From Desulfovibrionaceae bacterium (GTDB lineage Bacteria; Desulfobacterota; Desulfovibrionia; Desulfovibrionales; Desulfovibrionaceae), in NCBI GenBank assembly GCA_017454005.1, contig JAFTDU010000022.1, positions 1 to 56,612 on the forward strand: 56,612 nucleotides of DNA. Reading direction: 5' to 3'. The translations under genes were made by a program, and so were the position numbers. The notes under the pieces were generated by a model. It did not search any database. It was not told the origin of the DNA and saw only the letters and a program-made list of their open reading frames with translations. Every line of letters begins with the position of its first letter. Position 1 is the first letter of the stretch. This document shows positions 36,648 through 37,788 of this stretch, in pieces.

Positions 36648-36911
36648 CTAAATCAAGCTCTTTTTCTTGACTTGGGAATCATGGGTTGCGGTGTAGATGA
36701 GCAAGGCCATCTGCCGCGCCCGTTTGATTTCGCGGGTCAAGAGACGTTGGTGGTGGGCGCAGGTACCGGTAATGCGGCGGGCGATGATTTTGCCCCGCTC
36801 ATTGACAAAGTCGCGCAAAATATCAGGACGTTTATAATTCAAAGGTAATTCACTGTCAGCACAAAAACGGCAATATTTGCGTCTGGGTGCAAAACGTTTT
36901 TTATAAGGCAT
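36648..36911 (-). CDS. rpsR: 30S ribosomal protein S18
   Basis: 87 residues with the S18 signature: YCRFCADSELPLNYKRPD, then GKIIARRITGTCAHHQ and LLTREIKRARQMALL. The N-terminal Cys pair is retained. The start overlaps the rpsF stop as TAATG, so S18 translation should depend on ribosomes finishing S6. That requires removal of the rpsF intron. S6 and S18 form a heterodimer on the 30S platform. Confidence 0.97.
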   Translation of the reverse strand: MPYKKRFAPRRKYCRFCADSELPLNYKRPDILRDFVNERGKIIARRITGTCAHHQRLLTREIKRARQMALLIYTATHDSQVKKKSLI

Positions 36912-37788
36912 TAGGCTACCTCCTCGTCCGCATGTTCGGCGAGTTTAACTGTCATAAATTTGAAGATGCCATCACTATTGCGGATATTGCGCTCCAATTC
37001 AGCCACAAGCTCAGAGGGGCCCAAATATTCTAAACGCACATAATAACCACGCATAAGTTTATGCACAGGATAGGCAAGATCTTTCATTCCCGCTTAGATA
37101 AAAGAGATCCAGGTTGTAGATTGGCGCAAAATTTTATTAATTAAGCGTAAAAAAAATCTGCATAATCTTAGAATCATTCAACCAATCTCTTTATCTTGTT
37201 CACGTTAAAACGCAACTTTTAACGCAGTCTTACAATTACTTGCAGACCTCTCATGCTTTCACATGAGCGCAGACTATATCTTCAGCCAAAATACATTGGC
37301 GCAACATTTTTCTTCAGGCGTAGGCTTCCTGTTTTACTCTCCCTCAAGGAGATAGTCGTTGGGGGTTCTCCATGCTTGGAGCCAAGTTTAGGAGTTTCCC
37401 TGCTAAAGACCCATTGCTGTTGACACTTAGGACGGATCTTGAGATCCGCTTGTTTGCACCTTATGTCATCCTTACGTTTTTTTTGCTTTCGCGCCTGTTG
37501 CAGCTTATCTTTTCAGATTACTGTTTCGGTGTAAGGCTTTAGGGCTTCAAAGCATTTAACGTTGAGTTTACACCTCTTGAAAGATGTAAAGGGTATTCTG
37601 TTCTGTTGAAAAAATATATCTGTTTAAGAAACAAGTATTTTTTTTAACAGTTAGTTTGCCCAATGGTCGGTAGCGAGCATTTTGCCGTTTTCGCGTTCAA
37701 TGATACCCGTTAAGGTCGTAAGTAAGGTTTCTCTCACATCTGCTGTCAGCTCAGGGGAAAGCAACAGCAGAGTTTCAAATTTGCGCAT
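36911..37788 (-). CDS. rpsF: 30S ribosomal protein S6, gene interrupted by a group I intron
   Basis: Exon 1 (37788 to about 37660) starts at an ATG with GGAG 8 nt upstream. It encodes MRKFETLLLLSPELTAD and on to ATDHW (43 residues), the complete S6 N-terminal part. The frame then runs into a TAA at 37653. Exon 2 (about 37090 to 36911) resumes with GMKDLAYPVHKLMRGYYVRL and ends AEHADEEVA, the expected S6 C-terminal part. Joining them gives about 102 residues, the normal S6 length. Exact splice sites cannot be fixed by eye: joining 37660 to 37090 restores Trp-Gly-Met; joining 37662 to 37092 obeys the U-before/G-after rule but gives Ser for Trp. Confidence 0.92.
37091..37659 (-). ncRNA. group I self-splicing intron within rpsF (ORF-less)
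   Basis: About 569 nt separate the two S6 exons. Read on the minus strand it has the group I core: an R-like element CCCAACGACTATCT (37364-37350 region) and an S-like element GAAGATATAGTCT (37283-37271 region). GACTAT (37357-37352) and ATAGTC (37277-37272) pair as P7. A Q-like segment CAGGGAAACTCCTAAA lies upstream of them. Stems include a 9-bp hairpin near the 5-prime end (37590-37582 with 37575-37567) and a P9-like CTCATG/CATGAG hairpin (37267-37262 with 37255-37250). No homing endonuclease frame is present. Boundaries are uncertain by a few bases; the subgroup is not assigned. Confidence 0.88.

Follow-up and report, generated by a model that had tools for sequence, protein, structure and literature searches.

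Probable eroded group B IStrons as predicted introns in rpsF and other protein genes of a Desulfovibrionaceae bacterium

Group I introns are reported to be uncommon in bacterial protein genes, where coupled translation is thought to be unfavourable to them (PMC3984707). The closest described systems are the IStrons; in a 2014 survey they were restricted to Firmicutes and Fusobacteria, and a strain had at most 24 copies, as in strains of Clostridioides difficile (PMC4227781). In their group B, in which a group I intron is joined to an IS607 transposon, the last exon base is described as G, which was confirmed by RT-PCR for BcISt1, and the IS part starts after P9.2 at GAACAA or GAACAC, within an AU-rich stem (PMC4227781). 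The same source lists one such element, SrISt1, for Selenomonas ruminantium subsp. lactilytica, and its table gives four copies per strain. For an rRNA insertion of Sulfitobacter, the available part of PMC13386836 reports no IStron signature.

The gene for ribosomal protein S6 (rpsF) is split by an insert in the window analysed here, the whole stretch of 56,612 nucleotides (Table 1). As the sequence-only reading had proposed, the S6 frame, which opens with an ATG at 37788 on the minus strand, stops at codon 46 (unspliced, it reads TGG GCA AAC TAA, W-A-N-stop), and its C-terminal half resumes about 570 nt downstream: removal of 37658..37090, 569 nt, yields a normal S6 of 102 residues with the junction DHW-GMKDLAYP. 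The boundaries were set by frame restoration together with the GGG/CGG convention of group B IStrons, and runs of G would let the cut move by one or two bases without altering the product. Downstream of rpsF, the genes that we take to be rpsR and rplI follow in order, then dnaB. No endonuclease frame had been seen in the insert, and this holds, the longest listed frames wholly within it being of 56 residues and both antisense.

Table 1. Features of the split rpsF gene and of its insert (positions in the window).
Feature	Position	Strand	Details
rpsF, whole, split	37788-36911	-
rpsF exon 1	37659..37788	-	43 codons + 1 base of S6; 3' end ACCATTGGG
Intron in rpsF (very probably an eroded group B IStron)	37090..37658	-	569 nt; 5' start CAAACTAAC, 3' end TAAGCGG
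In-frame stop TAA of rpsF	37651..37653	-	8 nt into the intron, before the ribozyme core
P1	37591..37661	-	exon GGG 37661-37659 with guide CCC 37593-37591; extended inner hairpin; z -2.93
P2 hairpin	37567..37590	-	5/9 pairs changed on both sides, 100% paired
P3 5' strand	37558..37564	-	partner 37308-37302; 2/7 pairs changed on both sides, each in 8/20 copies
P4/P5 5' strands	37542..37554	-	partners within 37412-37401
P5/P4 3' strands	37401..37412	-
P7 5' strand GACTAT	37352..37357	-	within R-like CAACGACTAT; invariant
P3 3' strand	37302..37308	-
P8 hairpin	37285..37300	-	3/5 pairs changed on both sides
P7 3' strand ATAGTC	37272..37277	-	within S-like GATATAGTC; invariant
P9 hairpin CTCATG/CATGAG	37250..37267	-
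P9.1	37227..37247	-
P9.2 hairpin	37203..37224	-	then GTGAACAA, the described junction to the IS part (PMC4227781, available portion)
Tail	37090..37197	-	site of the lost IS part; single closing stem, 3' splice site beside P9.2
rpsF exon 2	36911..37089	-	begins GAATGAAAGATC / GAATGAAAG; stop TAA
rpsR (presumed, from gene order and sequence)	36648..36911	-	next operon gene
rplI (presumed)	36149..36637	-	used to find named relatives

In almost all relatives searched the gene is uninterrupted. An S6 match covering 1-90 in one piece was obtained in 59 of 60 relatives, one of which (G011) carries an in-frame TGA in S6; the exception, G033, gave no S6 match. Of 80 named loci found through rplI, 72 gave an in-range S6 match, and in 71 cases that match crosses the junction, which reads WGMRDLAYP in all 25 sequences inspected. 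The nearest of these loci belong to Desulfovibrio and Desulfovibrionaceae genomes, the closest being a goat-rumen bin with 89% identity. The Pfam S6 model matches the spliced product over 1-90/90 with 81.3 bits, vs 46.4 and 22.7 bits for the separate pieces. A second intact rpsF was looked for in the host assembly (1.97 Mb, 120 contigs, 67.85% complete), which holds only the split copy.

The nature of the insert is indicated by its core. Against RF00028 it matches at 37593-37250 over the full length of the model (1-253), with 35.9 bits and an E value of 2.3e-7; the covariance-model match anticipated from the letters is therefore obtained in full extent but below the gathering score of 50, and at that threshold no match occurs in the whole window. 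The R-like CAACGACTA and S-like AAGATATAGTC elements recognised earlier are present and pair as P7 (GACTAT/ATAGTC), and the P9-like hairpin is likewise found. The insert has a P3-P8 core with the guanosine site in P7, formed by the R and S elements, and hairpins P7.1 and P7.2 pair across 20 copies, as in the group B class named IA2 in the available text of PMC4227781. The P1 guide reads ACCC in 19 of the 20 aligned copies and GCCC in one. Together, this core and the continued S6 after removal support the proposal of a group I intron within rpsF.

The structure is further supported by comparison of the copies of the family described below. Across 20 copies, an alignment that omits argF and cobO (long internal insertions), the edge copies and C55, the 73 pairs from P2 to P9.2, including the P3/P7 pseudoknot, are paired in 99.2% of 1455 cells. 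The corresponding value is 90.7% in shuffles and 37-43% in slid structures; the rpsF row served to draw the structure, which gives it an advantage over the slid versions. Changes on both sides are seen in 27 pairs, vs 16.2 ± 2.1 in shuffles that ignore relatedness, and none of 500 shuffles reached 27. P4 and P5 are without covariation because their pairs hardly vary. The match of rpsF to RF00028 is more than chance, and the ribozyme appears to be under selection, its core covarying while the transposon part decays.

The same genome holds many such introns. RF00028 gives 26 matches in it, one of them above the gathering score, and R1, a model of the 3' half built from 19 copies, gives 28, which correspond to 27 introns since two fall in a single intron split by an insertion (C68). 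Both ends were placed, in a way that keeps the reading frame, for 21 introns in 18 protein genes. The hosts are rpsF, topA, polA, HU, glmS, thyX, argF, panC and cobO; truB, nth and endA, with two introns each; and FeFe-hydrogenase-like, rtcB-like, M50 peptidase and (assigned by eye) M15-like peptidase genes, a DUF4851 gene and gene C75b. All 21 lie in sense orientation; ORFs were examined on the intron's own strand only, so antisense insertions could hide among the six unplaced copies, namely the ycaO-like C30, the edge copies C13, C85b, C113 and C78, and C55. In the ycaO-like gene (named by eye), reading by eye revealed no 3' end in G that would also keep the frame, and this intron is possibly a defective copy.

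Since the ends were chosen to continue the frame, its restoration is by itself no test, and the independent tests are the relatives, for rpsF, and Pfam. All genes but the M15-like one and C75b were scanned with Pfam, and in 13 of these 16 spliced proteins a domain match crosses the junction, scored on the whole protein or around the junction. The matches include HU 1-90/90, TruB_N 3-149/149, OTCace_N 1-148/148, CobO 4-172/172 and DUF4851 1-189/189; that of topA passes the junction by four residues only. The nth match stops three residues before the junction, the glmS junction falls after codon 3, outside the Pfam-matched stretches, and the best Pfam stretch of the M50 gene lies beyond the junction. 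In truB (C18:2500-9500), two introns flank a 19-nt micro-exon, AAAACCACAGATACCTGGG, with the product VFG-KTTDTW-DITGKV. In nth, no more than one base separates the 3' end of the first intron from the second, and the glmS intron is preceded by ATGTGTGGG.

The splice ends correspond closely to those of group B IStrons, which insert after a site ending in GG (AGGG, TGGG or GAGG). Among 22 left ends (the 21 placed introns and ycaO), 20 follow TGGG, one AGGG (thyX) and one CGGG (the second nth intron), the search having asked for GGG upstream of the guide with the preceding T left free. The U expected of group I introns at the 5' exon end is accordingly replaced by G at all 22 left ends, GGG being the search condition. 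The 21 right ends read CGG (15), TGG (4), AGG (1) and CGA (1), in line with the 3' CGG of group B; the first pass sought CGG only, and the others were placed manually, guided by the protein that exon 2 encodes. A terminal G, as in group I introns, closes 20 of the 21 placed copies, rpsF (GCGG) among them. The polA intron (C23), which ends in A (CGA), either has its last G mutated or is placed in a splice register off by one base. Because of this ending and the unclear 3' end of ycaO, not every copy need splice.

The rpsF insert shows every surveyed mark of a group B IStron except the genes. The IS junction, GTGAACAAGATAAAG, and a closing stem are present, while ORF A and ORF B of IS607 are both absent from this copy, and for this reason it is filed as IStron-derived and not as a complete IStron. 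An IS200/IS605 (group A) type was considered and rejected on the target and end motifs and on the lack of any Y1 transposase domain match in the 68% complete assembly.

In all 20 copies tested (ycaO included, nthb and C75b left out), the host frame meets a stop 3-56 nt into the intron, with a median of 11.5, compared with a median of 28 from overlapping positions within the introns (p 0.0013). When the frame is drawn at random, 0.39% of trials have every one of the 20 stops within 56 nt, a limit set post hoc, and the threshold-free version of the test gives 4.1%. The halting of ribosomes ahead of the ribozyme is an established idea (PMC3984707, PMC4227781). The leader CTAACTAACTGTTAA was also considered as a universal three-frame stop and rejected, closure requiring a median of 76 nt vs 59 in the intron body.

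The closest relative found came from a 420-nt intron query, which returned one plasmid record, pSRC1 (NC_017078.1) of Selenomonas ruminantium subsp. lactilytica TAM6421; the element on it is taken to be SrISt1. At pSRC1 147705-151890, SrISt1 seems to divide a single gene, whose two exons would be SELR_RS16365 ('hypothetical protein') and SELR_RS16380 (sensor kinase). When 20 placed introns (C75b left out) were compared with SrISt1, alignment was confined to the intron region, bases 44-535, at 66-81% for the main piece; the transposon part was undetectable in 19 of the 20, and truBb kept short traces. The edge copy C13, cut at its 5' end by the contig edge, aligns with most of the SrISt1 element at 73-84%, ORF A being covered in part and ORF B for the most part; it is decayed and its TnpB frame is broken.

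Between P9.2 and the right end, the 21 placed copies carry tails of 9 to 1808 nt that share no detectable sequence, except for argF/cobO (125 nt, 68%); the tail of C13 matches truBb. The copies form a series from argF, which at 2.6 kb has nearly the length of a full element, to C75b, an almost bare ribozyme with a 9-nt tail. All 19 tails folded (argF, C75b and C13 were skipped for length) have a closing stem of 5-21 pairs between their first 25 and last 30 bases, compared with 8.7/19 expected from shuffles (P 4e-8; median z -3.0). The shuffle control bears on the existence of the stem and not on its origin, and says little for the shortest tails (34-67 nt), where at least half of the shuffles also pair. 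The rpsF tail folds as one long hairpin (z -3.16). The stem is presumably the ancestral inverted repeat, and its retention presumably serves to hold the 3' splice site close to the core.

Transposon genes are represented on other contigs. An intact TnpB of 393 residues with the right end of the family is encoded on C11 (ORF 426-1607); among its best 120 protein matches, the named ones are three of Selenomonas ruminantium (75-82%) and one Selenomonadaceae bin (70%). Upstream of it there is almost no recognisable intron (36 bases at 78%), and C11 may represent either an IS part standing alone or an element with a decayed intron. A further TnpB-type fragment, near a contig start (C110:139-345), could not be aligned with the other two. 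No match to the serine resolvase domain PF00239, and hence to TnpA, was obtained in the 68% complete assembly.

Outside this genome the family is sparse. RF00028 gave one weak match in 60 relatives (G043, 25.4 bits, with stricter filters). R1 found matches in four of 348 genomes of the order: the host, G151 (six), G150 (one) and G179 (one, at 49.7 bits vs 166-206 for most others). Among 395 genomes drawn from the phylum, it matched the host and G436 (one, 31.8 bits); both counts are lower bounds, since 7-8 candidates were scored per genome. G150 and G151 belong to the same genus as the host, and several G151 copies follow TGGG within genes that appear, by eye, to be interrupted. The core motif from S to P9 gave 30 matches on 29 viral contigs, many of them phage-intron-like by eye. 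On the contig IMGVR_UViG_3300031867_000523, positions 4167 and 13547 mark two similar introns whose tails look IStron-like.

A tree of 27 rows, rooted at the midpoint for drawing and omitting argF, cobO, ycaO, the edge copies and one G151 match, separates two groups. The M50, M15, first nth and C75b introns stand beside three G151 copies, and the 16 other host copies group with SrISt1, two G151 copies and G150. The two nth introns fall apart in the tree, so that this gene holds one intron of each group. Within the 16, the introns of rpsF, topA, HU and glmS, with the second ones of endA and nth, form a poorly resolved, star-like set, and the end branches of the rpsF clade are short (0.04-0.08).

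These findings make it very probable that the inserts are group B IStrons eroded into fixed introns, with splicing predicted. In the predicted order of events, an element resembling SrISt1 of Selenomonas ruminantium would have reached a Desulfovibrio lineage and settled at many sites after TGGG, where self-splicing of the RNA would have made every insertion tolerable. Decay of the transposon genes would have followed, one copy after another; the ribozyme, the splice ends, a closing stem with the dead transposon in its loop and, with less certainty, the host-frame stop ahead of the core may have been maintained by selection on the host genes. Transfer between two phyla is the natural reading, its presumed direction being into the Desulfovibrio lineage. 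For rpsF, splicing is predicted, and dependence on self-splicing, as first proposed, is the best reading of the sequence. Immobility had been attributed to the missing endonuclease; if true, it would stem from loss of the transposon genes and not from lack of a homing endonuclease. The stronger proposition, that core genes (S6, topoisomerase I, DNA polymerase I, HU, TruB, GlmS, ThyX) run through more than 20 obligatory self-splicing introns, ex-transposons from another phylum that have lost their mobility, has in our judgement about an even chance of being right.

The main competitor to fixation is continued mobility, in which ORF-less copies would spread like miniature transposons with the help of a TnpA whose gene escaped assembly. 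The assembly lacks about a third of the genome, the intact TnpB of C11 retains the right end of the family, the terminal branches around rpsF are short, and spread of copies that lack an intact ORF A is described from other genomes (PMC4227781). However, no TnpA domain was found in the assembly, and a single amplified mini-element is contradicted by tails that, apart from the pairs argF/cobO and C13/truBb, have no detectable sequence in common; we regard continued mobility as unlikely. Far less probable is that this rpsF is a dead copy with a non-splicing insert, the intact gene lying in the missing part. Incompleteness of the assembly (67.85%) leaves room for such a gene, but both S6 exons are well kept, rpsR, rplI and dnaB still follow in order, relatives with a match have one rpsF each, and 17 other genes would need the same tidy death.

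Descent from ordinary phage-type homing introns that lost their endonucleases, with no kinship to transposons, is disfavoured and has very little probability. The S-to-P9 motif is indeed common to the viral contigs, but homing introns keep to conserved sites (PMC4227781) and carry an endonuclease gene, whereas the rpsF insert has no such ORF and one family occupies 18 unrelated genes after a four-base motif, with IStron ends and a transposon-bearing relative that has the same ends. An artefact of assembly or binning is hardly credible either: the assembly is fragmented (120 contigs), but 21 different junctions continue the frame and the same intron family occurs in two more genomes of the genus. 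Erosion of group B IStrons into fixed introns is the preferred reading.

As far as searched, the host phylum, the copy number, the ribosomal-protein target, the micro-exon and the fossil, decayed state are new; within the titles and abstracts searched, with subscription journals mostly outside the scope, no report of an rpsF intron or of IStrons in Desulfovibrio was found. The kind of element and its splicing chemistry are already known, the latter having been demonstrated for BcISt1 by others (PMC4227781). The present case represents, as far as seen, a third phylum for IStrons, and the two thirds of a genome that are assembled already contain 27 introns; one bacterium has at least 21 introns in 18 genes, a ribosomal-protein gene among them. 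Since the copies form a series from argF to C75b, the passage from mobile element to fixed intron is open to testing, and more cases may hide as pseudogenes because gene finders would split such genes. If the preferred reading is true, this would be intron gain by transposon invasion and fixation, a route proposed for eukaryotic introns, occurring in bacteria with group I ribozymes; the 19-nt micro-exon between two introns would mean that the stage of a multi-intron gene has been reached.

Among the known systems, SrISt1 is the closest found in sequence, its intron being 73.3% identical over 98% of the 420-nt query, and its TnpB 75% identical to that of C11. It too is inserted after TGGG, with ATAATGGG at its left end and flanks that continue in frame, and its right end, GTAGCGG, TTTATCGTAGCGG, is the same in the TnpB copies of the host genome. 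In contrast to the placed copies, which lack ORFs, SrISt1 carries IS607 TnpA and TnpB after the intron; it is an element of 2578 nt (ends set here) in a Bacillota host, whereas the 27 introns described here reside in a Desulfovibrio-type host. CdISt1 (Clostridioides difficile, group A) is likewise a transposon-carried group I intron spread through protein genes. It differs in its IS200/IS605 type, its T-rich target and its ends in TCAG, and its copies tabulated in the available part of PMC4227781 keep ORF B, whole or truncated.

In dsrA of Candidatus Thiomargarita nelsonii, a protein gene of core metabolism is likewise interrupted by a group I intron, whose P9 region holds a transposon-like part (PMC4853749). 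Unlike the present family, this intron occupies one gene, is of class IA2 with a resemblance to phage Twort introns, and contains a MITE with TATA ends that recall IS630 (PMC4853749). The decayed state itself finds its nearest parallel in the ORF-less BcISt1 variants of emetic Bacillus cereus, in which both ORFs have been lost and the inverted-repeat stem kept (PMC4227781). Those variants occupy orthologous sites in five related strains, whereas the copies described here occupy at least 20 sites in one genome and have unlike tails.
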